From Gammaproteobacteria bacterium (GTDB lineage: Bacteria; Pseudomonadota; Gammaproteobacteria; SZUA-152): 60,180 nt of DNA. The DNA is taken from the NCBI GenBank assembly GCA_021647505.1, contig JAKIUN010000016.1, positions 1-60,180 of the forward strand. Reading direction: 5' to 3'. The notes beneath the pieces were generated by a model. That model was not told the origin of the DNA. It saw only the letters and a list, made by a program, of their open reading frames with translations, and made no database searches. Positions 5,186 through 27,851 of this stretch are shown here, in pieces. A program made the position numbers and the translations under genes. Each line of letters begins with the position of its first letter. Within the stretch, counting starts at the first letter, position 1.

Positions 5186-5199
5186 TTGATCTGTATCAA
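5186..5199. promoter_or_regulatory. FNR/DNR-type box, perfect TTGAT-N4-ATCAA
   Basis: TTGATCTGTATCAA matches the FNR/DNR consensus exactly in both half-sites. It lies in the gap between the cytochrome b-c gene (ending 5258) and the lipoprotein gene (start 5068), centred about 124 bases before that start. It would place the propeller operon under anaerobic or nitric-oxide control. Confidence 0.7.
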
Positions 5200-7915: not shown

Positions 7916-8863
7916 TTACTCCAACCATTTCCCCATATTTACAATGATGCTATTTACCAGGGTTTCTTCAATGACAAACAGGTTCTCTGCCTGGTTGGTT
8001 TTTGCAAAGTAGCCTCTTCTCTTTCTATCCTTAGCGCCTATATAGAGCACTTCCGGAAGCTCTTTTTTATCCTCATAGATCGTCACAATTAAGTCAGGAG
8101 CGACGAGGCCATACGAGGCAAGGTCTGATGAAGGCTCATTGATGAAATCTTTTATTTGTGAATTATTTATTTCATACAACGACTCCAGAACCTTTTCCAT
8201 TGATGCTCTACCTATTTTTGGCTCAAGCATATTCCATTTGCCTCTGTGGTGCTCAATAACCACTCTCGCCACCCCTTTTCTTTCCACCTCAAGGCGTCTT
8301 AATTTTACAGGTTCAATATCAAGGATATTTTTATCACGTAGCGCATAAACACTTTGTGCTGCCTCTTTTTTCACATCTGAATGCACACGATAGACTTCTG
8401 GACGGCCTTTAAACATGATGTAGGAAACATTATGAGTTGGCCCCTTTTCACCAAACAAGAGAGTAATAGACTCTGCTCCTGCACTAATCCCCATTTCCAC
8501 ATCAGGTGGCGCCAAACCGAGTTCTTGTAATTTGTCGGAACTCGGTTGTGTAAACAGCGTTGCATCCTTCCTGGCTTTTACAATATTGATCAGGATCCGT
8601 TCGATGGCTTCATCATCTCCCTTCACCGTCAATGGCTGGGTCATATCCCACCCATCAGAACCACGAACAAGTTTTATCTTCTGCCCCGCGCTCTTATCAT
8701 TTATCCAAAACTCTGTTATCTCACCGATGGAATACGGCAAAAGTTTCAAGCTGGCTTCAGTAATCCGCTGATTATCTTCCGCCTGTTGATCCAGAAAATA
8801 AAAAGAACCACTCAACATAATCAGAACAAATACCCAAAAGAGTGTCTTCTTTATTAAATTCAC
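7916..8863 (-). CDS. DUF4340 domain protein
   Basis: A 315-residue protein with one N-terminal membrane helix (about residues 8-24) and a periplasmic region of repeated alpha+beta units (DMTQPLTVKGDDEAIERIL, KWNMLEPKIGRASMEKVLESLY) typical of DUF4340. This family commonly follows GldG-type genes in ABC exporter clusters. It starts with GTG overlapping the stop of the upstream GldG-like gene (GTGTGA), so translation is coupled. It presumably forms part of the membrane complex made by the three genes upstream. The biochemical role of DUF4340 is not known to me. Confidence 0.85.
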   Translation of the reverse strand: MNLIKKTLFWVFVLIMLSGSFYFLDQQAEDNQRITEASLKLLPYSIGEITEFWINDKSAGQKIKLVRGSDGWDMTQPLTVKGDDEAIERILINIVKARKDATLFTQPSSDKLQELGLAPPDVEMGISAGAESITLLFGEKGPTHNVSYIMFKGRPEVYRVHSDVKKEAAQSVYALRDKNILDIEPVKLRRLEVERKGVARVVIEHHRGKWNMLEPKIGRASMEKVLESLYEINNSQIKDFINEPSSDLASYGLVAPDLIVTIYEDKKELPEVLYIGAKDRKRRGYFAKTNQAENLFVIEETLVNSIIVNMGKWLE

Positions 8864-10428: not shown

Positions 10429-10430
10429 AT

Positions 10431-11210
10431 TCACCACCTTTTAGACTCCAGGCTTCGGAGGGTTAAGAAAAGAAATAGAACAATAAAACATAAGTAATAA
10501 ATGATGTCCTCCGTATCCAGAACACCCTTGGCTAAACTTGCGATATGTTCATTAATTGATAAATATGACAGGACTTGTCCAAAAGCGGGGGACACAAAGG
10601 GAACCGAATAGCTAATCAACCAGAAAAAGAAAAGGATTCCAAAGGACATTGACGCCGATACGATCTGATTTTCTGTTAGTGATGAAGTAAATATCCCTAG
10701 CGAAATAAATGCAGCACCGAGTAAGAATAAACCCAGATAGCCTGTAAGAATAGGCATAACCTCTGGCTCACCCAGGCCAAGCAGGAGAATGGGGTATGTT
10801 GCCGTCAGCAAAATCATGACTAGAAAGACAAACAAACAGGCCAAGTACTTTCCCAGCACCACATCAATGTCTTTCACGGGAAATGTCAGTAGAAGCTCTA
10901 TTGTTCCAGACTTCTTCTCTTCGGAGATAAGCCTCATCGTCAGGAGCGGTGTCATCAACAACATAATAATACTGATGTTGCCAAAAAGCGGCCTCACAAC
11001 GGTTTCGTTAATATTTAGCAGTTGATACTGCTTCGCTAACATGGGATTGACTTGCGCCTGAAAGCTGATGACAGAGAAGGTGGCGAGAAGATTGTAGAAG
11101 AAATATCCCGTGATCAGCAAGAACATGACAATGACCACATAAGCGATCAATGAGCTGAAATAAGATTTCAGCTCTCGGTTGAGGATAAGCCCGACACTAC
11201 GAACATTCAT
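10431..11210 (-). CDS. ABC-2 type permease, GldF/NosY-like
   Basis: A 259-residue integral membrane protein with about six helices and the ABC-2 pattern: an N-terminal LILNRELKSYFSSLIAYVVI helix, a cytoplasmic RLISEEKKSGTIELLLTFPV coupling segment, and a C-terminal pair of helices. It overlaps the upstream ATPase by an ATGA junction. NosY of canonical nitrous oxide reductase clusters belongs to the same superfamily, as does GldF. The adjoining GldG and DUF4340 genes favour the GldF type. It forms the pore with the ATPase encoded at 11207-12142. Confidence 0.88.
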   Translation of the reverse strand: MNVRSVGLILNRELKSYFSSLIAYVVIVMFLLITGYFFYNLLATFSVISFQAQVNPMLAKQYQLLNINETVVRPLFGNISIIMLLMTPLLTMRLISEEKKSGTIELLLTFPVKDIDVVLGKYLACLFVFLVMILLTATYPILLLGLGEPEVMPILTGYLGLFLLGAAFISLGIFTSSLTENQIVSASMSFGILFFFWLISYSVPFVSPAFGQVLSYLSINEHIASLAKGVLDTEDIIYYLCFIVLFLFLTLRSLESKRW

Positions 11211-12142
11211 GTCGATTCCTTTGTGACCAGTTTAATGAACACATCTTCAAGGCTCATCTCCATGGGTCGCATTTCTATTAAATCCCATCCATTCGTATCA
11301 ATTACAGAGTGAACGCTTTTCCTTGCTTTCTTCTCATTATCAAATGTTACAATGAAACCACAGGCATCCTTCGCGGTTGTCAGCTCTCTCTCAACACCCT
11401 TAATCTCAGTGAGACTGGAAAGCGCCTTCTCCACCTTAACCACATCTCCACTGATCCGTAAAAACATTCTTGATACACTTCCTGAGGTTAAATTTTCAGG
11501 CGTATCAACCGCAATCAGTTTCCCTTCATTAATAATGATTACCCTGCTGCACAGAAGGCTGACTTCGGGAAGGATGTGGGTACTTAAAATAACGGTATGC
11601 TTTCCTGCCAGTTCCTTGATGAGATTTCTGATCTCTTTAATTTGTTTCGGATCCAGGCCGACTGTAGGTTCATCAAGAACCAGAACCTCGGGGTCATTGA
11701 CCAAGGCCTGAGCAATCCCAACCCTCTGCCGGTATCCCCTGGAAATCGAACTTATCATTTTTTTGGATACGTCACCGAGCCCGCAATCACCCATGATCTG
11801 GCTGACCTTATGCTTTGTATCCCGGCTTGACATACCTTTTATTTTTGCCACAAAAATCAAGTACTCATCAACTCTCATATCCTCGTATAGCGGAACCCTT
11901 TCGGGTAAGTATCCGATTTTCCGGCGGACATTCAGTGAGTCCTCAAAACAGTCATACCCTGCCACCATCACCTTTCCCTTTGTGGGTGGTGAATAGCAGG
12001 TCAGTATTCTCATTGTAGTGGTCTTGCCTGCCCCATTGGGCCCAAGAAATCCCAGTATTTCGCCCTTTTCCACAGAAAAACTGATGTCGTCCAAGGCCCG
12101 GTAACCACCATAGTCTTTTGTTAAATTTTCAACGTTAATCAT
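11207..12142 (-). CDS. ABC transporter ATPase, GldA/NosF-like
   Basis: A 311-residue ATPase. Walker A is GPNGAGKTTTM (about residues 34-44), the Walker B region reads VLVLDEPTVGLDP, and the signature loop is ISRGYRQRVGIA, slightly off the usual LSGGQ but normal for the CcmA/NosF/GldA group. A C-terminal extension of about 80 residues is typical of these exporters. It is the first gene of a five-gene minus-strand operon (ATPase, permease, GldG, DUF4340, LivK). NosF performs this role in canonical N2O reductase maturation, so a maturation or export function for the NosZ-like enzyme is plausible but unproven. Confidence 0.9.
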   Translation of the reverse strand: MINVENLTKDYGGYRALDDISFSVEKGEILGFLGPNGAGKTTTMRILTCYSPPTKGKVMVAGYDCFEDSLNVRRKIGYLPERVPLYEDMRVDEYLIFVAKIKGMSSRDTKHKVSQIMGDCGLGDVSKKMISSISRGYRQRVGIAQALVNDPEVLVLDEPTVGLDPKQIKEIRNLIKELAGKHTVILSTHILPEVSLLCSRVIIINEGKLIAVDTPENLTSGSVSRMFLRISGDVVKVEKALSSLTEIKGVERELTTAKDACGFIVTFDNEKKARKSVHSVIDTNGWDLIEMRPMEMSLEDVFIKLVTKEST

Positions 12143-13371: not shown

Positions 13372-13810
13372 ATACCCTCTCTCTCATTGAAAAAGAATTT
13401 TAGTTAATGACAACCAGTCGGTTGGCTCATTCTAATTTAGGAAGGGTGGATAGATAGATAGCGGGAGCATAAAAAATCATGTCGAAGTATTCCTCAGCAG
13501 GGAAAAAGGAAACGGTGCTGCCACTCTCCCGAAATATAAGATATTGGTTACACCCTTAACCCCTAGTGAACAAAGTGGCGTAATCATCATGAAACAGCCT
13601 TGACTTATATCAATTTTGAATCACGAGCGCATCACTTACGAACAACAGGGTATATTAAGTAGTTCTTCCTGTCCTGCCCTCCACGGCAAAAAAAGAGCCC
13701 GTATTAAGTGTATATTGCACGCAGTAATCCGCTGTTCGGAACTTTTCGATGGTGACAATGCATCCCTACAACGAAGCAACCCACCAAAATCAGTACATTT
13801 AGCCAAGTCA
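13372..13810. other. Intergenic stretch with one FNR-type box
   Basis: No gene is supported. The notable content is the box at 13600-13613. A plus-strand open frame at 13616-13855 ends inside the opposing permease gene and has no family features. Confidence 0.5.
13600..13613. promoter_or_regulatory. FNR/DNR-type box TTGAC-N4-ATCAA
   Basis: TTGACTTATATCAA has one FNR half-site (ATCAA) and one DNR/NNR-style half-site (TTGAC). It lies about 230 bases before the start of the SUMF1-like gene on the minus strand and is the second of four such boxes in the island. Confidence 0.6.
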
Positions 13811-14635
13811 CTAGAGGAGCTTTTTCCTGAGAAAAAGACTCAGGTTATCCACTAGATTCACCATGATGAAGACAATGATGATCAGGGTCAGGACTCTGTC
13901 CGAGTGAAATAAACTGATGGACTTATAGAACAACAGGCCGATTCCACCCGCGCCAACAAAGCCCAGGATGGCCGCCCCTCTAATATTCATTTCCCATCGG
14001 TAGAGGGTATAGGAGAGGCATTGTGGCAGGGCTTGTGGAAGGATGCCATAAAAGAATATCTTCATTCTCCCTGCACCCGTCGAGGCAATAGATTCCACCG
14101 GCCCCGGATCGACATTTTCCAGCACATCGGCATAGAGCTTTCCCAGCACGCCCCCGGTATGGAGGGCAAGCGCTAATACTCCCGCAAACGGGCCTAAACC
14201 GACGACTAAAATAAAGATAATCGCCCAAATCAATTCCGGTATGGAACGTAAAACATTCAACACGATTCGGCTTATGAACACGATAAAACTGCGCAGTAGG
14301 CTGCTCTTTGTGCTCTGCTCACCCGATAGCCAGCCACCAACAGACATCGTTCTTATGGCAAAAGGCGTGAATGCGATAGCGATTATGATGGCGAAAAAGG
14401 TTCCCATGATTGAAATGGCCAGGGTTTCTACCGAAGCTATGAGGGCTTCTCTAAGGAACCCCCCTGAAAGGTCAGGAGGATAAAGATCGTAAAAATAGGA
14501 GAGGATCTGTTTAAGGGCATCTGTGCTGAACAGCAGGGAAAGATCAAGATCAAGCCCTTTGATGCTCAGTACAGTGATAAGAAACAGAATGACGATAACC
14601 GTCAGGGCTGGAGGACATTTTCTTTCGATGTCCAT
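13811..14635 (-). CDS. Phosphonate-type ABC permease (PhnE-like), second copy
   Basis: A 274-residue membrane protein of the PhnE family: an N-terminal helix, a periplasmic loop containing YPPDLSGGFL, then the permease core with the EAA-like coupling loop (STGAGRMKIFFYGILPQALP). It abuts the first permease gene with no gap and is last in the order binding protein, ATPase, permease, permease. PhnCDE-type systems import phosphonates, phosphite or related oxyanions. No C-P lyase or phosphite dehydrogenase gene is in the window, so the substrate is open. The pairing of two unequal PhnE proteins suggests a heterodimeric channel. Confidence 0.85.
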   Translation of the reverse strand: MDIERKCPPALTVIVILFLITVLSIKGLDLDLSLLFSTDALKQILSYFYDLYPPDLSGGFLREALIASVETLAISIMGTFFAIIIAIAFTPFAIRTMSVGGWLSGEQSTKSSLLRSFIVFISRIVLNVLRSIPELIWAIIFILVVGLGPFAGVLALALHTGGVLGKLYADVLENVDPGPVESIASTGAGRMKIFFYGILPQALPQCLSYTLYRWEMNIRGAAILGFVGAGGIGLLFYKSISLFHSDRVLTLIIIVFIMVNLVDNLSLFLRKKLL

Positions 14636-15505
14636 TTAGATAATCTTCCTGCGCAACCAGCCGCTAATAATGTCGGCCATACCCACGAGAAGGCAAAGGA
14701 TGATCAAAAGTGTCGCCACCTCACGATAGTCAAACATCCTCATTGAGAGCTCCAGCTCCTGGCCGATCCCGCCAGCACCGACAAAACCCAATACGACTGC
14801 GGCCCTGATACCACATTCCCATCGGTAAAGCGTATAAGCGGTGAGATCCGGCAATGCCAGTGGAATATAGCCGTACAGCACAACCTTCATCTTTGACGCC
14901 CCTGATGCATGAAGTGCCTCAATGGGTTTTGGGTCAACTGAGTCAAGTATTTCAGAATAGAGCTTGCCCAATACACCGGCATAGGCGATGCCCAGGGCAA
15001 GTACACCGGCAAGAGGGCCCAAGCCCACCGCCCTCACAAAGATAAGGGCCCAAATCAGTTCGGGGATTGATCTAAAGAGATTTAAAACCCCTCTGGCCAT
15101 GATGAAAGGAGCAATCCTCAGCAATCTCTTCAGCGCCGAGTCCGCTTTGCCGGAAGAAAAAATACCTCTGTGCACCAGGGAACTGGTCGCAAGGAGGCTG
15201 AGCGGGATGGCGATGAATACGCCCAGCAGGGTTCCAAGGATAGCGATGAAAAGTGTATCCAGTGTAGGCTTAATAACAAAGCCAAGAAATTCCCGGGAAT
15301 ATTCAGGGGGGTACAAGCCAAGCAGAAAATCTCTTGCACCCTCGGCGCCTTCTTCACTCCAGAGAAGAGAGATGTCTATTTCTGAAATCTCGTAGCTTCC
15401 CCCAAGAATAAGCAGTCCCCCGAGGATAAGCAGTCCCTTCAGCGTTGAATCATATCTTGACTCTTGGTGCACAACAAAGGGGTATGACGGCACTTTTTTT
15501 TGCAT
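14636..15505 (-). CDS. Phosphonate-type ABC permease (PhnE-like), first copy
   Basis: A 289-residue membrane protein homologous to its neighbour at 13811-14635. It shares the YPPEYSREFLGF loop, the LRSIPELIWALIFVRAVGLGPLAG helix region and the coupling loop SGASKMKVVLYGYIPLALP. It starts one base after the ATPase gene's stop and ends one base before the next permease start, so the operon is very compact. It would form the membrane channel of a PhnCDE-type importer with the second permease. The substrate is unknown. Confidence 0.87.
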   Translation of the reverse strand: MQKKVPSYPFVVHQESRYDSTLKGLLILGGLLILGGSYEISEIDISLLWSEEGAEGARDFLLGLYPPEYSREFLGFVIKPTLDTLFIAILGTLLGVFIAIPLSLLATSSLVHRGIFSSGKADSALKRLLRIAPFIMARGVLNLFRSIPELIWALIFVRAVGLGPLAGVLALGIAYAGVLGKLYSEILDSVDPKPIEALHASGASKMKVVLYGYIPLALPDLTAYTLYRWECGIRAAVVLGFVGAGGIGQELELSMRMFDYREVATLLIILCLLVGMADIISGWLRRKII

Positions 15506-16258
15506 CTATGCCCCTTGATGATCATCACCGTATAACTGTTGCAAGCGCTCGGGCGTTACCTGGCCCGTTGGGAGATCAAAAAATATCGTGCCATTTTTTA
15601 ACGCAATGATTCTGGGAAAGTTGGCAAGGGCAAACTCCAGATGATGAAGCGTAACAATCAAGGTCTTATTCTTCTGTTTGCTCCAGCCAACCAGAATTTC
15701 GATCAATTTTTCGCCACTGCGAGGATCAAGAGAGGCGAAGGGTTCATCGGCCAGCAGCAGATTTGGATCCTGAAACAGCGCCCTGGCAATAGCAACCCGC
15801 TGCTGCTGGCCGCCACTCAACCTATCGGTTCTCCAATATATCTTGTCTTCTATTCCGGTCATTTCCAACACTTCTCGAACACCCACTTCCTCAAGGGGCT
15901 TTATCAGTAATGAAAACAATGCCTTTGATGTTGACCAGGAACCCAGCTTGCCGGAAAGAACATTGTTAATAACCTTAAATCGGGGAATGAGATTGTGTGA
16001 CTGATAAACTGTAGCAATGCCCCGCCTCACTGTTCGCGCTTCCCTTACACCAAGGCCGGTGACTTTCTTTCCGGCTAGTTCAATGCTCCCTTGATCTGGA
16101 AAGATCATCAGATTCAACAGCCTCAATAAGGTGGTCTTTCCCGACCCATTGGGGCCTATGACAGCCACTCTCTCACCCTCTTTCACTGTGAGACTAACGG
16201 CCTTTATGACAGCCTCACCGCCAAATCCCTTTTGAAGATTATTTACACTAACTTCCAC
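15506..16258 (-). CDS. Phosphonate-type ABC transporter ATPase (PhnC-like)
   Basis: A 250-residue ABC ATPase with Walker A GPNGSGKTTLL (about residues 36-46), signature LSGGQQQRVAIA, Walker B LLLADEP and the switch histidine in LIVTLHH. The length and the RTVRRGIATVYQSHNLIPRF Q-loop region fit the PhnC class. It lies 71 bases after the binding-protein gene and directly before the two permeases. It energises import of the unknown ligand bound by the protein encoded at 16330-17205. Confidence 0.88.
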   Translation of the reverse strand: MEVSVNNLQKGFGGEAVIKAVSLTVKEGERVAVIGPNGSGKTTLLRLLNLMIFPDQGSIELAGKKVTGLGVREARTVRRGIATVYQSHNLIPRFKVINNVLSGKLGSWSTSKALFSLLIKPLEEVGVREVLEMTGIEDKIYWRTDRLSGGQQQRVAIARALFQDPNLLLADEPFASLDPRSGEKLIEILVGWSKQKNKTLIVTLHHLEFALANFPRIIALKNGTIFFDLPTGQVTPERLQQLYGDDHQGA

Positions 16259-16329
16259 AGAAAAATTGTACGCCTTGATCGTGCAACAGGCTCATCCCCT
16301 CATCGACAATCATGGCTCTCATAAAACTC

Positions 16330-17205
16330 TCATCTCAAAAGCCCTGCCGACTTTGCGGCCTGCTCAATGCCTTTATAGTTTCCAGGGTTAGTGGCGATAT
16401 AACTCTTTGCCCTCTGCAAATCCATAATTTTTCTGTGTTCAGGCTTATCATAATCAAGCACCAGGAAGGCGTCTCTTATCTTTTCCCGAAGAGCCTGGCT
16501 GATGTTCTTGCTGACCGCCCAGTTGTAGTCGTAATAGGGAGGCGTGGTCCATATAACCTTGACCTTCGTTGTATCCACGGCCCCTTCGTTGACGAGTCTT
16601 TTCCACACTGCCTCATTCAGGGTGCCGGCATCCACCTTGCCCGACTCTACCCATTTCACCGTGGCATCATGCGCACCGCTAAAACTGATACGTCTAAAAT
16701 CATTTTCAGGGTCAATTCCATGGCGCAGAAGATAGTGTCTTGGCATCAGGTGCCCTGACGTTGAGCTGACACTGCCGAAGACAAACGTATGTCCCTTGAG
16801 ATCATCCAACCCCTTGATTCCGCTCTTTACGCTGGCAATGAATTTGCTATGGAATTTTGTGTCCACGGCCCGTTGCACAATCGGTATACTCCCCGCCCTT
16901 TTCATCGCCTGAACCGTTGTAAAACCACCGTACCAAGCCATATCCAGCTTTCCTGCCGCCATCGCTTCTACCGTGGCGGCATAATCCAGAACAGGGAAAA
17001 ACTTGACCTCCATGTTCAGTGTTCGCTCAAGATATTCGACGAGGGGCTGATATTTCCTGAGCAACATCGTAGGGTTTTCGTCGGGTACTGCCGAGATTCT
17101 TAACACTGATGGGTTCCCGGCCAAAAGTGTACAGGGGAGGAAAACCAGGATGAGTATGATAAGGATGCGGCACTTCTTGAGAAATAGCATTATCTTACGC
17201 TCCAT
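16330..17205 (-). CDS. PhnD-like periplasmic binding protein
   Basis: A 291-residue type II binding protein with a signal sequence (hydrophobic residues about 12-28, ending near LLAG). The PhnD-family hallmarks are visible: RISAVPDENPTMLLRKYQPL, MAAGKLDMAWYGGFTTVQAM, and the SVSSTSGHLMPRHYL ligand loop. It heads the four-gene transporter operon, and an FNR-type box lies about 150 bases upstream (17347). PhnD-like proteins bind phosphonate, phosphite or other oxyanions. The regulation and position beside a NosZ-like enzyme hint at a respiratory or cofactor supply role, which is inference only. Confidence 0.85.
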   Translation of the reverse strand: MERKIMLFLKKCRILIILILVFLPCTLLAGNPSVLRISAVPDENPTMLLRKYQPLVEYLERTLNMEVKFFPVLDYAATVEAMAAGKLDMAWYGGFTTVQAMKRAGSIPIVQRAVDTKFHSKFIASVKSGIKGLDDLKGHTFVFGSVSSTSGHLMPRHYLLRHGIDPENDFRRISFSGAHDATVKWVESGKVDAGTLNEAVWKRLVNEGAVDTTKVKVIWTTPPYYDYNWAVSKNISQALREKIRDAFLVLDYDKPEHRKIMDLQRAKSYIATNPGNYKGIEQAAKSAGLLR

Positions 17206-17655
17206 CAGCCATGGTCATTTCGGTCACAGACAGCCTTCTCTTCCTTACCTTCAGCCTCTTTCTCGCAAAAAATATTAATTCTTGCAATACCCTGCTCACA
17301 TGGTCAGACATTTGAAATATATCACCTTGCATACCGACACCTTGCATTGACATGCATCAATTTAATCAAAAACTTTCATTTGAGCATGGCCAATAATCAT
17401 TGAACAGCCCATCACCTCTGCAATCGAAGATATACTATTTTCGCTAAAGTTTCTCTCATCATCAGTGGCTTACCATGGGTAAGCCAGCATACAACGGTAT
17501 TATCAAGGATAAAATTGGCTTCAGCTAACCGCTTGGCTCTATACTGACACATGTCATCAGGCCACATGCATCATTGGGTATATTATGCACCAGGTTGAAC
17601 CTTCCTTCGTAGGAAGTTATAACAACTCCAGGTAACCGGAAGGAATATCAATACC
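17206..17655. other. Divergent promoter region between the Phn-like and Sco-TlpA operons
   Basis: This gap separates the minus-strand transporter operon from the plus-strand Sco and TlpA genes. It contains the FNR-type box at 17347-17360 and a weaker dyad CTGAC-N4-GTCAT at 17544-17557, about 105 bases before the Sco start. No coding frame is supported. Confidence 0.55.
17347..17360. promoter_or_regulatory. FNR/DNR-type box TTGAC-N4-ATCAA
   Basis: TTGACATGCATCAA is centred about 148 bases before the PhnD-like start and about 300 bases before the Sco start. It is the third of the island's four boxes and could act on either divergent operon. Confidence 0.6.
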
Positions 17656-18342
17656 GTGAAGAAAAGAGGGGTTTTTTCCATCGGAAGCTTTGCGCTTATA
17701 CTGGTCGTTACAGTGGTGGCCGCCGCCTTTTTCACCTGGAAGACAAACTCCAATGAGCCTATTAAAGCACCAGAGGATCTTGAAGATTATCTCTTTTGGC
17801 AGGCAAAGCAATTAAATGACTTTACCCTCATTGGAGCCAACCGACAGACCCTCAACCTTGACAGTTTAAAGGACAAATGGAGCTTCGTATTTTTTGGCTA
17901 TATACAGTGTCCGGATGTCTGCCCGATGACCCTTGGAGTACTGGCTTCTGCCTTTGCTGATCTCAAACAAAATCCGGACATTTATGAGGAAATACAGGGT
18001 ATTTTCGTATCGGTCGACCCGCAGAGGGATACCCTCGAACTTCTAAAGGAGTATGCATCCTACTTCGGCAGCGAGTTCTCAGGATTTACGGGTAGTACAG
18101 AACAAATAGATGCATTTACACGGCAAATGGGCGCCTTGTACGCCATACACGACGAAGAGCCCGGGGAAGACCCGGACGCCTACGTGGTCACCCATAATTC
18201 AGCCGTATTTCTCGTTGACCCCCGCGGTAGGCTCTATGGGCGGTTCCCACCACCTCATGATGCTCAAAACATTGCAGACACTTTCATCAAGCTCCGCGCA
18301 TTTTATAAAGAGCAGGATGACAAACGATGGGGTTTTTTCTGA
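17656..18342 (+). CDS. Sco1/SenC family copper chaperone
   Basis: A 228-residue protein starting at GTG with GGAAGG upstream. One N-terminal membrane helix (about residues 8-26) anchors a thioredoxin-fold domain in the periplasm. The copper ligands of Sco proteins are all present: C85-P-D-V-C89 and H180 in VVTHNSAVFLVDP. Sco proteins deliver copper to, or reduce cysteines of, CuA sites in cytochrome oxidase and in N2O reductases. With the NosZ-like gene 3 kb away, the natural reading is CuA assembly for that enzyme. It is followed after 97 bases by a TlpA-like gene. Confidence 0.92.
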   Translation: MKKRGVFSIGSFALILVVTVVAAAFFTWKTNSNEPIKAPEDLEDYLFWQAKQLNDFTLIGANRQTLNLDSLKDKWSFVFFGYIQCPDVCPMTLGVLASAFADLKQNPDIYEEIQGIFVSVDPQRDTLELLKEYASYFGSEFSGFTGSTEQIDAFTRQMGALYAIHDEEPGEDPDAYVVTHNSAVFLVDPRGRLYGRFPPPHDAQNIADTFIKLRAFYKEQDDKRWGFF

Positions 18343-18439
18343 AAATTTTTCTCACAGTAGTCGTTCACGAGCACTTGGCCCTGCACTTCAGCAGACAATT
18401 TTTTCCTCGTCGATCAGATACTGAAAGGAGGCAAACCCT

Positions 18440-18949
18440 ATGTTAAGTCCTGACCGTCATATTGTCTTTTTTGTATTTATTATAGGGTGTTTATTGTTTT
18501 TAAATAGCTGTAGCGAAGACAAATCAGCATTGTACACCGAAGTAGAAATCGCCCCTGACTTTACTCTGGAGCTGTTTGATGGAGGGACTTTTCAGTTAAG
18601 CGACATGAAAGGAAAGGTCGTCGTCATCAACTTTTTTGCCTCCTGGTGTGTCTCCTGCGGTGAAGAGACACCAACCATTGAAAGGGTCTCTCAAGACTAT
18701 GCAAAAAAGGGAGTCGTATTTCTGGCGATTGCCGTCGATGACACGGAAAGGAAGGCGAAGGAGTTTATTAAGAAATATGGACTCACTATTCCAGCGGGCC
18801 TGGATAGGGCAGGAGAAATCAAAGAGGCTTATGGCCTGTACGGCATGCCTACGACCTTCTTCATCGATAAGGAAGGGATGGTCAGTTATTTCCATGCAGG
18901 CGTCGTTACAGAAAAGCTTCTGGAGCATGAAATAGAAAAATTACTGTAA
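18440..18949 (+). CDS. TlpA/ResA-like thioredoxin lipoprotein
   Basis: A 169-residue protein with lipobox L-N-S-C (cysteine 24) and a TlpA-type thioredoxin domain. The redox pair is C70-V-S-C73 in FFASWCVSC, and the cis-proline loop is GMPTTFFID. AGGAGG sits upstream of the ATG. It probably keeps the cysteines of a haem c or CuA apoprotein reduced in the periplasm. It forms a two-gene operon with Sco and is a close relative of the protein at 26115-26663 (both share LELFDG, FFASWC and FLAIAV stretches), so these two are likely duplicates within the island. Confidence 0.9.
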   Translation: MLSPDRHIVFFVFIIGCLLFLNSCSEDKSALYTEVEIAPDFTLELFDGGTFQLSDMKGKVVVINFFASWCVSCGEETPTIERVSQDYAKKGVVFLAIAVDDTERKAKEFIKKYGLTIPAGLDRAGEIKEAYGLYGMPTTFFIDKEGMVSYFHAGVVTEKLLEHEIEKLL

Positions 18950-19406: not shown

Positions 19407-19910
19407 TTACCTTTTTGCTGCTCTTTGTTCAAGCCTGTACGGCAGGCTTGTAAGTCGTGTGGTGCGCCAATACAGCCCATCCTGCATATTCTTGGCTAAT
19501 GCGACCGTCGCTTTGTTCATCCCGCGCGCTGCCCGAATCTTGTTGATCCACCGACTCATCTGTGGTCGTGTGACCGCTTCACTGATGGCCAGGGCATCGT
19601 TGTAGTCATTTTTGTTGCCGCGCACATAGGCTTTCACATATTGCGCCGGAATCAGTTTGACCTCATGACCCAGTGCCTCAAGCTGTCGGGCCCAGTAATG
19701 GGCGCTTGCACAGGATTCCATGCCGATCAGGCAGGACTCTAACGTGGCAAAAAACGTGAGCATTTCTCGACGCTTGAGCTTTCGCTTTTTGACCACTTTG
19801 CCTCGGTCATAACAGCACACCAAATGAAACACATTTTTTGCCAAATCCAGTCCAGCTGTCGTAATCTTGATCACGGTCTTCTCCTTTCTTTCGCTGATGG
19901 TCGTTAACAC
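19407..19910 (-). pseudogene. IS110-family transposase with internal deletion
   Basis: A 167-residue frame. The first 140 residues are the IS110 DEDD N-terminal domain (TAGLDLAKNVFHLVCCYD with the first Asp; IGMESCASAHYWARQL with the Glu; NKNDYNDALAISEA with an Asp). It then jumps directly to a terminal GMNKATVALAKNMQDGLYWR segment normally about 150 residues further on. The C-terminal serine-containing transposase domain is therefore missing, so the protein cannot be active. It lies between the TlpA gene and the cytochrome c gene, splitting the island. The true start may be the GTG-initiated VIKITTAG. Confidence 0.8.
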
Positions 19911-20479: not shown

Positions 20480-21439
20480 TTAATATCCCTGTTTAACCTT
20501 TGCGGCGACGTCTTGTGGCCTCTTTCTCAGGCCGCCATCAACATATTTACCACCCACTAGGTTACCACCATCACGCCCTGCGAGTTCTGCTTCCATGAGC
20601 TCCTGGGCATCGGCAAAGTCTTCACTGTCCGCTACATTCAAGGGATTCACATCACCCGCAATCGGCTTGAATGTAGACTTTGGATTCAGATACTCATCCA
20701 GATCCTTGGGGCTTTTTACATCCTGCATAGCGCGAATCCAGGCGACAATATTCCAGATATCCTGATCCTGCATATAGTTGCCCCACGATGGCATGGATGA
20801 AGAAAGAGAAATCGCTTCACCACCACCTTTGATAGAAATGAACAGTTCAAGATTGCTCTTCTTGTTCATATACTTACCGGCAACCAAGGTTCTCGGTCGC
20901 GGATCCAGGTCGATGGCCACTGGCCCATCACCCTGTAACATCCAGCCATGACAGGCGATACAGTATGAATAATACCACTGCTTTCCTTCATTCGGGTCGG
21001 CACCAGGAACACGGGTTTCAGTAAACGTGGGTGACCAGTTATTCGTCCATTGATTATAAATTTCCTCGCCTTTTGCCGGTTCCTTCACCCGATCCCACAG
21101 CTCCGTCCTTCCTGTACCTCCACCGCCATGTCCACCGTAACCACTTTCACCCTCCGTCAGGGTCGTCTTGTCGGTTCGCTTACCAACGCCCGTCAAGTAG
21201 TCAAACGGTGCAACACCATAGGTGCTGCCCGCCTTACCCATAGCCATATCCATGGCTTCCTTTTCATAGGCCTTCGAAGCCTTTTCCAAAGCCTCGTCAC
21301 TCAGGGTGGGACACTCAACCTTCGCACCCTGTGCTTTGCACCGCTTCTTTTTTTCCGCAGCGAAGGCAGACGAACCTGCCCACACGGCGACCAAACCTGC
21401 CATTGCGATCACGCATATTTTCAGATACTGATTCTTCAT
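20480..21439 (-). CDS. Periplasmic mono-haem cytochrome c associated with the NosZ-like enzyme
   Basis: A 319-residue protein from the ATG at 21439, with GAGG upstream; a GTG lies one codon earlier. Signal peptide: residues 1-28, ending AFA-A. A long N-terminal extension rich in Lys, Glu and Gly (GGHGGGG near 103-109) precedes a class I cytochrome domain: C161-I-A-C164-H165 (full-length numbering) and axial Met in SSMPSWG. The C-terminal tail of about 80 residues is also unusual. It is 157 bases downstream of the NosZ-like gene on the same strand, so it is the obvious candidate electron donor to that enzyme, analogous in role to NosC. Confidence 0.88.
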   Translation of the reverse strand: MKNQYLKICVIAMAGLVAVWAGSSAFAAEKKKRCKAQGAKVECPTLSDEALEKASKAYEKEAMDMAMGKAGSTYGVAPFDYLTGVGKRTDKTTLTEGESGYGGHGGGGTGRTELWDRVKEPAKGEEIYNQWTNNWSPTFTETRVPGADPNEGKQWYYSYCIACHGWMLQGDGPVAIDLDPRPRTLVAGKYMNKKSNLELFISIKGGGEAISLSSSMPSWGNYMQDQDIWNIVAWIRAMQDVKSPKDLDEYLNPKSTFKPIAGDVNPLNVADSEDFADAQELMEAELAGRDGGNLVGGKYVDGGLRKRPQDVAAKVKQGY

Positions 21440-21596
21440 CACTCATTTCCTCGCTGCTAAAAAAGGCCTTATCTCAACCACGGTTTCGGCGGAGTCTCGA
21501 ATAAAGCACTTTTTCCTCCCTAGGAGCCTGAGCCAGCCCAAAATTCAAGGGTTGACCCAGCTATTCATAAAGACTTCACACTGCATGAAGAAAGAG

Positions 21597-23354
21597 TTAT
21601 AGGCTCTTTACACGCTCGGCTATCGTTAACTCGCCTTCTTGCACCAGGCCTGGGAGTCTTTGTGCCTCTTCATAATCACCGACGGCCAGACTGGATGCCT
21701 CTTTGTTGGGATCATCCACAAAGAACGACCCTCTCATTTCCAAATGCAGGGGGCCGCAGAAGTGCTGACAGAAGATCGCATACTCACCGGCGATATCCGC
21801 AACAAATTCAGTGACCGCCGTCACTCCGCGCGGAGCAGCCAGATTAGTCCTCAATCCATAGGGACCATAAATTGTAAAGCCCATGGTGACGTCCGGGTTC
21901 TTCGTAATACCTGCTGCCTTGTCGATATTCGTCACAAACAACCGCACCTTATCGCCCTTGTTCACCCTGATCTGACGAGGGATATAGCCATAACTGAAGG
22001 CCTTGATGTGAATTTCCTTGACGCCATCAACGACCCGGATTCCCGGCTGCTCATTAGACTTGGGCATAAAATACCGTTTCGCCTTGGCCTTATTATGAGG
22101 ATAGATGGCCGGTGTCAAGCCAGCCTTGAGCAAGCCGCCTTTCTCTGCCTGACCCATGGTCCAGTCCTTTATTTGATAGGCATAGATAGTCTTGGCATTG
22201 TGCGGCTCACCATCCACGGGGATAAGCTTTAAGGTCTTGCCATAGGTGGGGCTATCCTCTCGTGCATCCCACATTTCGAAGTTTACCGGATAGACTACCC
22301 CCGTAGGACTGAACAATCCTGTTGAGAATTTATTTAGAGCAATGACATACTTGTTGTCTGCACTAATGGCGATATGTCCGGTTCTGTAGTGGGTTGGGAT
22401 CTCATCGACCACCTCAAGCGTTTTGAGGTCTATCTTTACATTGGAATCCGCCACAAAACAGCTTTGATAGGCGTACTTGGAAGTCAGCCCTTCTGGACTA
22501 TCCTTCCCCGGCTCATAGGTGCCACCGTCCTTATCATAGACATCCATCACCGTGTGGAGCGGGCCGGCACAGGTCGGCAAGACCTTTTTAACCGCCAGCG
22601 TTTCGATATCAATCACCGTCATCGTCGCCGACAGCTTGTCGCTCACCAAAGCCACCGTGCCCTCGGGTATGACGTCAACGCCGTGTGGATTTTTTCCGAC
22701 GGGAATTGCTTTAATAAACTTAAAAGGGTTAGCGGAAAAGACACCCACCGTTGAATGATAATAATTACCGGCAAAGACATATTTTCCCTTCTTGCCGACA
22801 TCCAGGTAATCCGGTGCGCTCGGCGCCGGCCCCCAGTCAATTATTTGCGTCTTGCCGGTGGAGATCTCGGTCTTTGACATCTTGCCGGTATACTCACCAG
22901 TTCCGAACAGATACTTGCCATCCGTACTCAGCGCAATGTGGTGGAGACCAAAGGGAAAAGGAAGCGCAATCAATCTCTCCAACATGCCGGTTTGTAAATT
23001 TATTTCTCCAATAGTGTTGGCACCCTTATCATTGACATAAAGATATTTTCCATCCGGCGTGCCATTTTTGTTACCTGCGGGAGAACCACCGTAAACAACC
23101 TCATGCAAATCTACGCCGACAGAAATATGCCGATAGGTTTTCATGCTTGGAAGCCCTATCACCGCCACCTTACCATTTAGACCACCCGCGTTATAGAGCA
23201 GCATTGGATCATGTAGCGGTGTATCTTTATTGTCTACTTCTGCATTTTGCCACGATGGCACCTGTTCCTCGGCACTTGCTGCCGCCCCTCCCCCAACTGC
23301 CAAACAAACTGCCGAAAGAAGCTTCACTATGAGAAACTTGTGATTGCAATGCAT
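21597..23354 (-). CDS. nosZ: Divergent nitrous-oxide reductase (NosZ-like), Sec-exported
   Basis: A 585-residue protein with a Sec signal peptide (no twin arginine), ending near ASAEE; AGGAGG precedes the ATG. Residues 50-440 form the seven-bladed propeller and 445-547 the cupredoxin domain. CuZ-type histidines can be aligned to known NosZ: DLHE (H84), LHH (H138/H139), NPHG (H224), GPLHT (H267), RTGH (H327), EPH (H385). The canonical second His of DxHH is Glu85. The CuA motif C529-x3-C533-x3-H537-x2-M540 is intact, but the usual upstream His of the THGF motif is Met491 (VTMGF). The LNKFS segment also matches NosZ. Homology is clear; N2O as substrate is likely but unproven. Confidence 0.85.
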   Translation of the reverse strand: MHCNHKFLIVKLLSAVCLAVGGGAAASAEEQVPSWQNAEVDNKDTPLHDPMLLYNAGGLNGKVAVIGLPSMKTYRHISVGVDLHEVVYGGSPAGNKNGTPDGKYLYVNDKGANTIGEINLQTGMLERLIALPFPFGLHHIALSTDGKYLFGTGEYTGKMSKTEISTGKTQIIDWGPAPSAPDYLDVGKKGKYVFAGNYYHSTVGVFSANPFKFIKAIPVGKNPHGVDVIPEGTVALVSDKLSATMTVIDIETLAVKKVLPTCAGPLHTVMDVYDKDGGTYEPGKDSPEGLTSKYAYQSCFVADSNVKIDLKTLEVVDEIPTHYRTGHIAISADNKYVIALNKFSTGLFSPTGVVYPVNFEMWDAREDSPTYGKTLKLIPVDGEPHNAKTIYAYQIKDWTMGQAEKGGLLKAGLTPAIYPHNKAKAKRYFMPKSNEQPGIRVVDGVKEIHIKAFSYGYIPRQIRVNKGDKVRLFVTNIDKAAGITKNPDVTMGFTIYGPYGLRTNLAAPRGVTAVTEFVADIAGEYAIFCQHFCGPLHLEMRGSFFVDDPNKEASSLAVGDYEEAQRLPGLVQEGELTIAERVKSL

Positions 23355-23985
23355 CTTTGTTTCCTCCCGTATGCGCCATTATCATTAACTGTTGACTGTA
23401 ACCGTTAAATAAATAGCAAGATGTTGACGCCGAGCCCCCCTGGGATTTAGCTTTAACCCAGAGATTTACTAAGACTCAAAATTTATTTCAATCGGTGCGG
23501 CCTCCGCAGCACACAATATGACCTTTTCTTTGCTTAATAATGGTTGTACTGACTCGACCTTACACAGCCGGTAACATTGAGCCATCCAATTTCTTGCAGT
23601 GAAAAAAACGCTCTAACTTAATACCCATCATCCCGCTGCGGCATTTTGACGCACTTCCACGCTACATCTATATCTCCAGCCACACTTCCATTCCTTGACA
23701 TTGGTCAAGAATGCCTGATATAGCCTGCCTCCCTCTACTTTAGTGGGTCAATCTATTATAAATAACTGTCGCTAAATGTTATTTTTAACCACGCTGGGAT
23801 AAAATATCCAAACTCCCTGTATATTTACATCTAACCCATATCAGAGATATTTACCCGGGAATTATTTATTTATCCTGTCTTGATAAGTCTATTCATGAGT
23901 GCCACGCTATAGTATCGGCTCTGGTAATATCAGTATTGGGTACTTAAGCTGGTACTCAGCTTACGGCAATGAGGGTTAACGCAGA
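23355..23985. other. Divergent promoter region of the NosZ-like gene and the maturation operon
   Basis: A 631-base gap with no supported gene. It contains the FNR/DNR-type box at 23695-23708, between the minus-strand NosZ-like gene and the plus-strand lipoprotein-CcmH-TlpA-CcdA operon. The long untranslated stretch in front of the NosZ-like gene (about 340 bases from the box) may hold a further promoter that I cannot identify. Confidence 0.55.
23695..23708. promoter_or_regulatory. NNR/DNR-type box TTGAC-N4-GTCAA
   Basis: TTGACATTGGTCAA is a perfect palindrome of the NNR/DNR style in the divergent region upstream of the NosZ-like gene and the maturation operon. Its centre is about 347 bases from the first start and 284 from the second. 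Confidence 0.65.
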
Positions 23986-24825
23986 ATGAATTTTACGAAC
24001 GGCTCCCTACTGCTCTTCATCACCTTGCCCCTCCTGACCTTCAGCACCGGATGCGAGAGAAACACAGGAAATTCATCGGCTATTAACGAAGAGACAGAAG
24101 GACTCTCCATTGGAAGAATGAGGGTTGCTATCTGGCCTGAATACGACGACCCCAGCCTGCTGGTTATTTATGATGGGAAGTTTGATGAAGATTCCCGATT
24201 TCCCATTAAAACGAGCTTCCTAGTCCCTAAGGGCGCCATTATCAGCGATGCTTGCAGCCTTTCACATGAAGGACAGCATTTTTGCCAGCTTTATAAGGTC
24301 TTTGACCGAGGGGCATACGATGAAGTACGCCTTTTACTGCCTTACCCAAATTTTTACCTCAGTTTCCACACTCCGGCATTCTCAGGGATAGACAGACAGC
24401 GAGAATTTCCATATCAGATTAAAGCCAATCATCCCATAAGATTTATGGAAATAGACATCCAGCAGCCCTTGCGGAGCAGTGAATTCAAGATAACACACGC
24501 AAATAATTCATCATTGACCCATGAGGTTCCTGCAGAAAGCGAGGTAAAGGGATTCAATCATTTCTCTTACAAACTGGAGAATGTCGAGAAAGACAAGGAA
24601 ATCACCTTTACGATTAACTACATCAAGAATGACCCAAAACCATCAGTCGACATTAAGTATTCACGCATGGGTGAGAAAAATACCTGGGAATCGCCGTATA
24701 AAACTCAAAAAAATGTTAAAAAGTTTGTATATATATTAGCCGGAAGCGGAATTTTCGGCATATTGGCTGCCGTCAGTGGATTTATATGGCTGCGAAGAAA
24801 AAGACGGCGCAAGGAACTGGCATGA
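23986..24825 (+). CDS. Lipoprotein with C-terminal membrane helix, unknown family
   Basis: A 279-residue protein with a signal sequence and lipobox F-S-T-G-C (cysteine 23), a periplasmic beta-rich domain of about 200 residues starting MRVAIWPEYDDPSLLVIYDG, and a C-terminal membrane helix (about 245-268) with a strongly basic end (RRKRRRK). I do not recognise a named family, although similar WPEYD-containing proteins seem to accompany cytochrome c maturation genes. It overlaps the CcmH-like gene by an ATGA junction and heads a six-gene plus-strand operon. A chaperone role for haem or copper insertion is inference. Confidence 0.72.
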   Translation: MNFTNGSLLLFITLPLLTFSTGCERNTGNSSAINEETEGLSIGRMRVAIWPEYDDPSLLVIYDGKFDEDSRFPIKTSFLVPKGAIISDACSLSHEGQHFCQLYKVFDRGAYDEVRLLLPYPNFYLSFHTPAFSGIDRQREFPYQIKANHPIRFMEIDIQQPLRSSEFKITHANNSSLTHEVPAESEVKGFNHFSYKLENVEKDKEITFTINYIKNDPKPSVDIKYSRMGEKNTWESPYKTQKNVKKFVYILAGSGIFGILAAVSGFIWLRRKRRRKELA

Positions 24826-25268
24826 AAGAAATCCTTAGCCGAAGGGCCTTTCTGTCACTCGCCTTTTATTTTACCCTGGCTTGCAGCTTGATCTCACCCC
24901 ATGCTTATGCACTAACCGTAGCGGAAGTCGTCAAGGATTTGGCCTGTCCCTGTGAATGTCCGTTAATCCTCGAAGACTGCAACATGAGTTGTGGCCTTGA
25001 ATGGAAGGAGGAGGTAGGTGAACAAATTAAAAAGGGGATGAGCAAAGATCAAATTATGGAATACTTTATTGGGAAGTATGGAGAAAGTGCTCGCCTGACC
25101 CCCATTCAGAGAATACAAGGGAAAACTTACCAATATACACGGAGTTTCGATACAGTAGACTGGGTACTGTTGTGGGCAGGCATAATCGGATGGATGGCGC
25201 TAATGTTCTTGGCCGTCTATATAAGCATCAGAAAACTTTTTTTTAAGAGCCCTAAAAAACCCGTATAA
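24822..25268 (+). CDS. CcmH-like thiol protein with unusual cysteine pattern
   Basis: 148 residues from the ATG at 24822, which overlaps the previous stop (ATGA). It has a signal sequence (to about residue 30), a short domain LTVAEVVKDLACPCECP and a C-terminal membrane helix (about 115-138). The helical KKGMSKDQIMEYFIGKYGE segment matches CcmH/NrfF apocytochrome-binding domains. The family's usual LxCxxC motif is replaced by C42-P-C44-E-C46 plus C53 and C57 (EDCNMSC), five cysteines in 16 residues. That could bind a metal such as copper or thiol-link to an apoprotein. It sits in an operon with three other redox-fold genes. Confidence 0.8.
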   Translation: MKEILSRRAFLSLAFYFTLACSLISPHAYALTVAEVVKDLACPCECPLILEDCNMSCGLEWKEEVGEQIKKGMSKDQIMEYFIGKYGESARLTPIQRIQGKTYQYTRSFDTVDWVLLWAGIIGWMALMFLAVYISIRKLFFKSPKKPV

Positions 25269-25300
25269 CTCCAGAAAGATTGACTGCATAAAAGGCACCC

Positions 25301-26131
25301 GTGAAATCCTTACTCATCAGCATTGGCGTATTTTTCTTGCTGTCGGTTCCAGCTCTGTTTCTATTATTTATGTACTTGACCGACATGCCTCCAAGACAAC
25401 TGGCTAATAACATTTATACCGAAGGAAAACTCTTTCTGTACAAGCAGGATATGATCGGAAAATTATCTCCCGATGAAATGACTCAGCTATACCAGGCAAC
25501 ATGTACCCGACAATGCCATAGCAGGGATGTCATCGAAGATAAACCCAGGACTGCCTTGGAGTGGGAATGGATAGTCACCCGCATGAAAACGCCAGATCTC
25601 GCAGATATATCAGACAAACATGCTGATGCCATTACTCGATACCTTCAGGAACACTATCTGAGTAATGTACCCACCGTCCTGCCAGCAAAGACTATGCGAT
25701 TTATAAAGCGGCACCTCTGGAAAAGTGATTTTGGTGATAGCGACCTGTATCTCGATATCATTTACATTCCCCGCGAACACCTCAGCCTGTTGCCGTACTT
25801 GGTAGCAAGAAAAATACCTAAGCAAAAATCAGGTGCTATTTTCATAGTTTATGTCAACACCCACCAAGGAACAATCCCGCCCTGGAACCTTGCTGAAATG
25901 TCTACGCTACATGACGGCAATGGCAATACACAACATGCAAATGGCTGGGAAATAATCTATGAAGACGGCCAAAACCATCACAAGCAAGGAATACTGACTT
26001 TCCCGGCTATTGATGAAAGAAAACCGGCTATCATAGATGTTGCCATTCACCTGCCAGGAATAAGGGAAAGGGTCTTCCAATGGAATCTTCCTATCGCACG
26101 TTTTACAGACAACGATGATGCAAAAAACTAA
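25301..26131 (+). CDS. Membrane-anchored protein with CX3CH motif
   Basis: A 276-residue protein starting at GTG. One N-terminal membrane helix (about residues 3-26) anchors it. Residues 68-73 read C-T-R-Q-C-H, so a haem c-like motif with three rather than two spacer residues, followed by ALEWEWIVTRMKTPDL, the pattern seen after the haem motif in small cytochromes. The remaining C-terminal 170 residues are beta-rich and unknown to me. If haem is bound, the unusual spacing could need the special maturation proteins encoded in this operon. It overlaps the following TlpA gene by 17 bases. Confidence 0.7.
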   Translation: MKSLLISIGVFFLLSVPALFLLFMYLTDMPPRQLANNIYTEGKLFLYKQDMIGKLSPDEMTQLYQATCTRQCHSRDVIEDKPRTALEWEWIVTRMKTPDLADISDKHADAITRYLQEHYLSNVPTVLPAKTMRFIKRHLWKSDFGDSDLYLDIIYIPREHLSLLPYLVARKIPKQKSGAIFIVYVNTHQGTIPPWNLAEMSTLHDGNGNTQHANGWEIIYEDGQNHHKQGILTFPAIDERKPAIIDVAIHLPGIRERVFQWNLPIARFTDNDDAKN

Positions 26132-26663
26132 GCGCTACAAACTATTCCTTATTGCGGGTGCCACGGGAATATTCATTGCCATCTCTCTGGCTGCAATGCT
26201 ACTGACGCGAGGTGATACAACAAAGGGGTTCTTCACTCAATCGGCAATAGAAACTAGGGAGCCAGCGCCTGATTTCAGCCTTGAATTATTTGATGGCAGC
26301 ACTTTTCGGCTAAGTGACCACAAGGGAAAGCCAATATTGATCAATTTCTTTGCATCCTGGTGCGCACCCTGCAAAGAGGAAATCCCCGACCTTGAAAATA
26401 TCGGCCAAGAGTACGGGCCAAAAGGTGTGGTGTTTTTGGCTATCGCCGTGAATGACAGCGAAGAAAAGGCGAGAACCTTTTTGAATGAGCTTGGCCTTAG
26501 CTTTCCTGCGGGGATCGATAAAACAAACAGTATCCAGGAGTCTTTCGGCGTGTATGGCCTACCAACCACCTATTTTATAGACAAAGAAGGTATTACGAAC
26601 TATCTCCATGCAGGCATTGTTACTGAGGAGTTATTGCGATATGAACTCGACAAGCTTCTTTAA
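26115..26663 (+). CDS. TlpA-like membrane-anchored thioredoxin
   Basis: A 182-residue protein with an N-terminal membrane helix (about residues 9-31) and a TlpA thioredoxin domain: FFASWC83-A-P-C86 and cis-proline loop GLPTTYFID. It is very similar to the protein at 18440-18949, including LELFDGSTFRLSD and the ending HAGIVTEELLRYELDKLL. Translation is coupled at both ends by overlap. It likely supplies reductant to apocytochrome or CuA cysteines in the periplasm, fed by the CcdA-like protein encoded two genes downstream. Confidence 0.9.
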   Translation: MMQKTKRYKLFLIAGATGIFIAISLAAMLLTRGDTTKGFFTQSAIETREPAPDFSLELFDGSTFRLSDHKGKPILINFFASWCAPCKEEIPDLENIGQEYGPKGVVFLAIAVNDSEEKARTFLNELGLSFPAGIDKTNSIQESFGVYGLPTTYFIDKEGITNYLHAGIVTEELLRYELDKLL

Positions 26664-27153
26664 GACTCTCGCTACTCTGTTCATCCTCACTGTCTTCCTT
26701 GCCGGTTGCAGCGAAGGCGGAAGAACATTATTGCAGGTTGGAGAAAAGGCCCCGCCATTTACCCTTACCCTGATTGACGGCAAACAAAGTCATCTTGACA
26801 TGTATGCCGGAAAAGGACTGGTTATAACCTTCATGTCCTCCTGGTGCCCCTGTTCAAACGAGTCCATTCCTCTGATAAAAAAGGCATATTTTAAGCATCG
26901 AGACGATGATGTGGTCTTTCTCATGATCGGCATCCAGGATGCCCGGTCAAAGTTTAAAAAATTCGTCGAAAAATGGAAGGTACCATTTTCTGCGGGCTAT
27001 GACGAAGACGACAAGATTGCCAGAGACTACGGTGTTGGCTCCCCGCCAACGACAATTTTCATCGATAAAACCGGGGTCGTAAAACGGGCTTTCTACGGAA
27101 ATATCGCGGATAAGGTGAAAGAGTTTCCACTATGGGTAGAGGAGATACGGTAA
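26641..27153 (+). CDS. Redoxin-family lipoprotein with CPC active site
   Basis: 170 residues from the ATG at 26641, which lies inside the end of the preceding gene. Lipobox L-A-G-C (cysteine 23), then an AhpC/TlpA-like redoxin domain: GEKAPPFTLTLIDGKQSHL, SSWC69-P-C71-SNESIP, and cis-proline loop GSPPTTIFID. The active site has one residue between the cysteines, where TlpA proteins have two. This may change redox potential or favour metal binding. The stop overlaps the next start (TAATG). Expected to act on the outer face of the inner membrane with the neighbouring TlpA. Confidence 0.85.
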   Translation: MNSTSFFKTLATLFILTVFLAGCSEGGRTLLQVGEKAPPFTLTLIDGKQSHLDMYAGKGLVITFMSSWCPCSNESIPLIKKAYFKHRDDDVVFLMIGIQDARSKFKKFVEKWKVPFSAGYDEDDKIARDYGVGSPPTTIFIDKTGVVKRAFYGNIADKVKEFPLWVEEIR

Positions 27154-27851
27154 TGGGAGCTAGCACCGCACTATGGGGAGGGTTCAGCTCTTTTTTCTCC
27201 ATCTGGCAAATATGTATCCTCCAGATCAGTCCATTCGTTATCGCCTTTCTGCTTGGTCTGTATCTGGCAACCCTTGAGCAAAAACCCAATGCGAGTATAC
27301 GCCAATGGGTTCTTGTTCCCTATGCTGCCTATATCTTGGGTTTCTGCCTATTTTATTCTCTGTTAATTGCCTCCGGATTAACCATCAGCCGATCCATCCT
27401 CTATCATATCGGCAACCTGAGAGTGGCTTCAGGCTTTATTATTCTCTTTGTGGCATTGTATCTGATTTTTCTCAATCGACTGTCTGTCCTGGGAGAAAGA
27501 CACAGCCCTACCGTGTCGAGCGTGCTTTCCCTGCTGATAGGCATGACCTTCGCCATCATCTATTCGCCCTGTATTACGCCAATCCTCTCTGAGATCATGG
27601 GCCTGGCGGCACAAAGAGGGACAGCCATCGAGGGCTGGTTCCTGGCATTTTTTTACGGGCTCGGCATCAGCCTCGCTCTGGGGGTAACGGCCGTCACCCT
27701 CATCCTGCTTCTCAGAAAACGCCAGATGGTCAGGCACCATGCCCGCTTGATCATCGGCATTTGCGGTCTCATCGTACTCGTGCCGGCACTGCTGAACATT
27801 ACCGGTCAAATGCGGCACTATAAGGCATTCTTTCTCGGCTTTCTGGTGTGA
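27153..27851 (+). CDS. CcdA/DsbD-type membrane protein
   Basis: 232 residues from the ATG at 27153 (TAATG junction with the upstream gene). About six membrane helices are visible. A YSPCITPIL motif in the middle is the hallmark Cys-Pro region of the CcdA family; the partner cysteine is less clear (ICILQISPFVIA near the N-terminus or LGFCLFYS). CcdA carries electrons from cytoplasmic thioredoxin to periplasmic TlpA-like proteins, matching the two thioredoxin genes just upstream. The frame stops at TGA (27849-27851), yet the same frame stays open for another 60 codons encoding two more membrane helices; see the next entry. Confidence 0.8.
   Translation: MGASTALWGGFSSFFSIWQICILQISPFVIAFLLGLYLATLEQKPNASIRQWVLVPYAAYILGFCLFYSLLIASGLTISRSILYHIGNLRVASGFIILFVALYLIFLNRLSVLGERHSPTVSSVLSLLIGMTFAIIYSPCITPILSEIMGLAAQRGTAIEGWFLAFFYGLGISLALGVTAVTLILLLRKRQMVRHHARLIIGICGLIVLVPALLNITGQMRHYKAFFLGFLV

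Follow-up and report, generated by a model that had tools for sequence, protein, structure and literature searches.

The gene at positions 21597-23354 (minus strand) of the window, the whole 60,180-nucleotide stretch of DNA, encodes a 585 aa protein which, judged by its family-model score, phmmer matches, fold and ligand census, is a member of a known but young and already named family, the clade III, lactonase-type N2O reductases (L-NosZ). We consider it likely that the protein is a working clade III N2O reductase ending NirS-type denitrification, with a CuZ site whose seven histidines are kept by a shift between propeller blades, a CuA site with Met in place of the gating His, and maturation free of NosD and NosL. 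A fuller picture of the branch as a whole, in which the CuZ pair lies on another blade with Glu in its place, Met replaces the gating His of CuA, assembly is by a GldA/F/G-type ABC transporter and propellers without NosD or NosL, and control is of the FNR type, is put forward tentatively, with a chance a little short of even. NosZ-type enzymes form the principal biological sink for N2O, a strong greenhouse gas. Should the branch prove functional, CuZ and CuA would withstand changes at positions whose mutation in the laboratory costs the site, and NosD and NosL would be dispensable for making CuZ; which ligands and which sulfide and copper delivery machinery are required would become directly testable questions, and genome surveys that rely on clade I/II nosZ or on nosD to recognise N2O reducers would overlook such organisms. 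Three features seem to merit further work: the reciprocal His/Glu swap, the methionine in the gating position of CuA, and the lack of NosD and NosL alongside a conserved alternative module.

Family membership and fold

The protein consists of a Sec-type leader, a seven-bladed propeller of lactonase/YncE-type repeats and a C-terminal cupredoxin domain. It scored 789 bits against the NCBIfam L-NosZ equivalog model NF052460 (cut-off 700; model positions 1-480), and the canonical models TIGR04246 and TIGR04244 returned 177.8 and 131.7 bits, respectively, both below their cut-off of 625. The phmmer comparison with solved N2O reductases (N2ORs) gave 2e-24, and the cupredoxin domain was assigned by sequence. 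A first AlphaFold2 model, built from close relatives only, was dropped (pLDDT 44); the nearest solved fold to the second model (pLDDT 82.7) was N2OR, with the propeller matched at Z ~38-42 over 322-331 residues and 2.0-2.4 Å. In a tree of 47 rows, the 24 L-NosZ rows, picked because they resembled either the window protein or NF052460, formed a single clade with 100/100 support, far from clades I and II and separated from canonical NosZ by a very long branch; the window protein was nested in neither canonical clade. The earlier note on this DNA had suggested, as one option, a NosZ lineage of its own whose centres are modified, and the distinct clade bears this out, although the lineage is not new, being already represented by NF052460 and by the family published by He et al. 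2025 (Nature 646:152), as cited in PMC13033781 and PMC13122619. Lactonase-type NosZ-like genes of Nitrospirota were recorded earlier and called distinct from clades I and II in the text of PMC11033732 that deals with them; their products resemble the window protein in having a lactonase-type propeller and a cupredoxin.

The window protein shares with clade II, Sec-dependent NosZ (TIGR04246) the Sec-type leader, the propeller and cupredoxin, the single-blade His residues, Cx3Cx3HxxM and the catalytic Lys, but is only ~27-30% identical to it and has DxHE and VTMGF where clade II has DxHH and THGF. Clade I, TAT-dependent NosZ (TIGR04244), which includes the solved structures, has the same fold, but differs in its TAT leader, the Trp in CxWFC, DxHH and THGF. 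No L-NosZ relatives were found among viral contigs, and plasmids carried canonical NosZ only, among the matches listed. One genome (G020) has two L-nosZ genes on separate contigs (L002/L033 and L038); their products share 91% and ~94% identity with the window protein, and the second gene runs into a contig end. Another genome of the same class (G040, locus L009) encodes a very divergent 640 aa NosZ with THGF and DTHH but CSHFC, whose long branch (1.38) falls outside the rows of clade I.

Copper-ligand positions at CuZ and CuA

The propeller carries the motifs DLHE (82-85), LHH (137-139), NPHG (222), GPLH (264), RTGH (324) and EPH (383), and the cupredoxin carries VTMGF (489-493) and CQHFCGPLHLEM, which supplies C529, C533, H537 and M540. 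The candidate CuZ ligands are H84, H138, H224, H267, H327, H385 and, less certainly, H139, which makes seven His if His139 is counted, with Glu85 nearby in the DLHE motif. The canonical DxHH pair of blade II is absent (DLHE), and at CuA the (T/S)HGF His is replaced by Met491 while the other four ligands, those of Cx3Cx3HxxM, are kept. The earlier note had read all of these motifs exactly, to the letter. It had also described the gene as altered by one ligand at each copper site; the letters are correct, but they characterise the whole branch rather than this gene. In a single alignment of 45 sequences (22 L-NosZ and 23 canonical NosZ), Glu85, His139 and Met491 were present in 22/22 L-NosZ, and His, Gly and His occupied the equivalent positions in 23/23 canonical proteins. 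Ligands 84, 138, 224, 267, 327 and 385, together with C529, C533, H537 and M540, were invariant in 45/45, as were Lys307 and Lys342, the latter being the catalytic Lys of LSKFS. Asp182, the ligand-equivalent position of blade IV counted along the repeat, is Asp in both groups. The same letters occur in a relative at 96% identity and in another 21 distinct L-NosZ, and DxHE, HH and V(T/I)MG were found in relatives from Chromatiales, Gallionellales, Mariprofundus, Rhodospirillaceae, Sedimenticola and a record titled Deltaproteobacteria, as well as in a deeper branch at 62-69% identity.

An intact DxHH- or THGF-type His placed elsewhere in the protein was sought in the 45-row alignment and none was found: the only extra invariant His residues absent from canonical NosZ were H76, H139 and H200, all in the propeller, and within the cupredoxin domain no His besides the ordinary ligand H537 was invariant as a stand-in for Met491 (H449 and H531 vary).

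Point variants of the window protein were scored against NF052460 as a probe of the model's columns. At position 85 the order was E > D > Q = N > H > A, indicating that the family has Glu there and that His does not rise above background. H84A, H138A and H139A each cost 4.6 bits, and this equal cost indicates that His139 is conserved as strictly as two canonical ligand positions. At position 491, His (192.1) scored above Met (191.2), and both scored above L, A, T, K and Q (189.3-189.9), which suggests that the model was built from both kinds of sequence. Glu85 and His139, matching the model's preferences in a shared lactonase/YncE-like propeller plus cupredoxin architecture, are probably characteristic of all of clade III, and Met491 is probably the mark of one branch; the window protein differs from the model in having Met at a CuA gate where NF052460 accepts His at least equally. 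Given this preference, characterised L-NosZ enzymes may differ from the window protein at CuA. The His491 form is deduced from the variant scores, as every sampled L-NosZ has Met, and a second, larger draw for His491-type clade III members from the phyla of genomes G461 and G453 gave no new lineage.

In solved N2OR, blade II provides two adjacent CuZ His, blade IV none and the other blades one each, and metallation is lost when any one of six among these seven His is substituted (PMC11573801), so that a His-to-Glu change on its own would call for compensation. In L-NosZ the second His of blade II is lost and a His is gained right after the blade III ligand, bringing the count back to seven. 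CuZ would therefore most likely keep seven His, with the adjacent pair shifted from blade II (DxHH to DxHE) to blade III (xHG to xHH), and His139 standing in for the lost blade II residue, in agreement with the earlier suggestion that an extra His may restore seven. Glu85 could then act as a second-sphere or proton-relay group, or as an extra ligand. At CuA, Cu1 is held by a mobile His (H583 in P. stutzeri, H579 in M. nauticus), proposed as a gatekeeper, and a Met (PMC11573801). With the gating His replaced by Met, the Cu1 site of the window protein would be sulfur-rich and probably of higher potential and non-switching. The metal content of both sites and the roles of Glu85, His139 and Met491 are predicted here from the conserved letters.

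Alternatively, Glu85 itself may bind copper, giving a carboxylate-containing CuZ with six or seven His plus Glu. We know of no such cluster type in clades I and II. Glu85 lies exactly at the second His of DxHH, is invariant in 22/22 and is preferred by NF052460 with no sign of His, all as this reading would have it; His139, however, is present in exactly those proteins that lack His85, which is the simplest sign of compensation, and we regard a Glu ligand as unlikely and favour the seven-His site.

The L-nos module and maturation genes

The gene lies in a ~22 kb minus-strand module (~1.3-23.4 kb) that is common to other L-NosZ loci and rearranged in the window, with SCO1, ResA-like genes and a PhnCDE-like transporter interposed. 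The placing of L-nosZ in a shared ~22 kb module with FNR-type boxes, and the lack of NosD and NosL in its genome and in nearly all relatives, may be new here. The open reading frames around 24 L-nosZ genes were clustered into families, and in about half of these loci a recurring order was seen: L-nosZ, a small lipoprotein, cytochrome b in one or two pieces, two Vgb-lyase-like propellers, c-type cytochromes, and then GldA/GldF/GldG-like ABC genes with a DUF4340 protein. In the window, the c-type cytochrome at 20480-21442 (minus; one CxxCH, CIACH; Pfam Cytochrome_CBB3) belongs to a family, f2, found near L-nosZ in 23/24 loci, and is a probable electron donor. The genes that follow, all on the minus strand, are a GldA-like ABC ATPase (11207-12142; homologues lie beside L-nosZ elsewhere, and that at locus L050 matches GldA at 315 bits), a GldF-like ABC-2 permease (10431-11210) and a GldG-like protein (8860-10437), both with homologues at other L-nos loci, and a DUF4340 protein (7916-8863; the L050 homologue matches PF14238). 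A petB-like cytochrome b with a C-terminal CNSCH part (5258-6409, minus), homologous to the f13 cytochrome b, is the probable quinol-side electron input. Next to it are a small lipoprotein of family f6 (4559-5068, minus), held by 13 loci and placed directly after L-nosZ elsewhere; two Vgb-lyase-like beta-propellers, the first (3226-4461, minus) with homologues in 14 other L-nos loci and a PF24684 match in L050, and the second (1917-2927, minus) with homologues at other L-nos loci; and a small c-type cytochrome of family f7 (1337-1858, minus; CTTCH ... CSRCGPP) with homologues in 13 other loci. SCO1, of the CuA-type copper chaperone family (Pfam SCO1-SenC, 123 bits), and a ResA-like thioredoxin are encoded at 17656-18949 (plus). 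A divergent block at 23986-27851 (plus), encoding a 279 aa protein, a CcmH-like protein, a SorB-like cytochrome, two ResA/TlpA-like proteins and a 239 aa membrane protein, is kept in whole or part beside L-nosZ in four other loci (L032, L049, L091 and L045). Neighbourhood ties these module genes to L-NosZ, as a candidate association read from gene order.

Several further neighbours were observed. The PhnD/C/E/E-like phosphonate-type ABC transporter lies within the module at 13811-17205 (minus), preceded by an FNR-type box at 17347, and such genes adjoin L-nosZ in L032 and L049 too. An IS110-like transposase fragment (19407-19910, minus) between the cytochrome c gene and ResA/SCO1 may be linked to the rearrangement of the module. 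A second conserved neighbourhood, seen at L037:4612-9347 (plus) and in six other loci, consists of genes immediately upstream of L-nosZ that encode a cytochrome bd-like protein, a c-type cytochrome and a dicytochrome-EB_dh protein. On the downstream side of L-nosZ, Gallionella-like genomes and Mariprofundus have PCP_red/Usp, radical SAM/PCP_red and amine-oxidase genes (L037:13052-18459, plus).

CuZ maturation is considered to require NosDFY, and NosL is counted among its components (PMC7660919, PMC6530538). NosD (TIGR04247) was found over cut-off in 21/21 genomes with canonical NosZ versus 2/25 L-NosZ genome handles, among which at least one genome (G316/G463) was apparently counted twice (Fisher P ~7e-11, the two hits counted as present). 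NosL matches were seen in 20/21 canonical-NosZ genomes and in three L-NosZ genomes. The window's own genome, 98% complete, had no NosD over the TIGR04247 cut-off and no NosL match, differing in the former from clade II genomes, which carry NosD, and in both from a Nitrospirota MAG for which the relevant text of PMC11033732 lists a lactonase-type NosZ-like gene with nosDFLYX. Many L-NosZ genomes are incomplete metagenome assemblies, in which single absences weigh little but the overall contrast does count. Maturation would accordingly be expected to proceed without NosD or NosL, with the GldA/F/G-like ABC transporter, the Vgb-like propellers and SCO1/ResA-type proteins as likely substitutes.

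One of the two NosD hits (L087) adjoins a canonical clade II nosZ; the other (L086) belongs to a nosD cluster of clade II type that is cut off at a contig end, with no nosZ visible, as that gene would fall beyond the end. A NosD-like right-handed beta-helix fused to a c-type cytochrome was seen inside an L-nos operon (L088:6363-7961, minus; genome G685), between two cytochrome b pieces, scoring 58 bits against a cut-off of 300.

Regulation, pathway and function

Four FNR/DNR-type boxes (TTGAYNNNNRTCAA) occur in the window against 0.43 expected, and 0/100 shuffles reached four; each of them lies within the module, upstream of one of its units. All are on the plus strand: TTGACATTGGTCAA (23695-23708) lies 341 bp upstream of L-nosZ, between that gene and the divergent block, and the other three are TTGACATGCATCAA (17347-17360), TTGACTTATATCAA (13600-13613) and TTGATCTGTATCAA (5186-5199). 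Across 17 Pseudomonadota loci, 10 have the box within 400 bp upstream of L-nosZ, compared with a chance rate of 1.6% (P ~1.6e-14, a somewhat flattering value as the loci include close relatives). The window's own genome carries nirS and its relatives on another contig, and no canonical NosZ was found in it. Together with the boxes, this fits a role in the last step of denitrification: L-NosZ would be the periplasmic N2O reductase that ends NirS-type denitrification in a Chromatiales-like bacterium. Electrons from quinol would probably travel by way of the module's cytochrome b and c-type cytochromes, enter the enzyme at the cupredoxin (CuA) and finally reach CuZ in the propeller; we infer both this path and the N2O-reducing activity from sequence.

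The branch could instead do another job, as a copper propeller enzyme with a different substrate, or as a sensor or electron-transfer protein derived from NosZ, an option akin to the other substrate allowed for by the earlier note. The very long branch to canonical NosZ, the Met at the CuA gate, unusual neighbours such as the Vgb-like propellers, and the lack of NosD and NosL in most L-NosZ genomes would suit such a role. The window protein nevertheless clears the L-NosZ equivalog cut-off and retains every CuZ blade position and the catalytic Lys, FNR-type boxes mark the locus, nirS is present in a genome with no other NosZ, and the published family, going by the title of and citations to He et al. 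2025, reportedly reduces N2O. A different job is therefore improbable, slightly more so than a Glu ligand at CuZ, and N2O is favoured as the substrate. An assembly error or degenerate pseudogene, which the fragmented source assembly (117 contigs) might suggest, is refuted by a second genome that has a copy at 96% identity, by 21 other relatives that share these letters and by strong overall conservation.

Elsewhere in the window, a gene at 57445-58644 (plus) encodes what we take to be an NnrS-like, nitric-oxide-related membrane protein, which would fit an N-oxide regulon. Three genes at 49009-54130 (plus) resemble molybdopterin oxidoreductase, ferredoxin-type and NrfD-type subunits, possibly SoeABC of sulfite oxidation.
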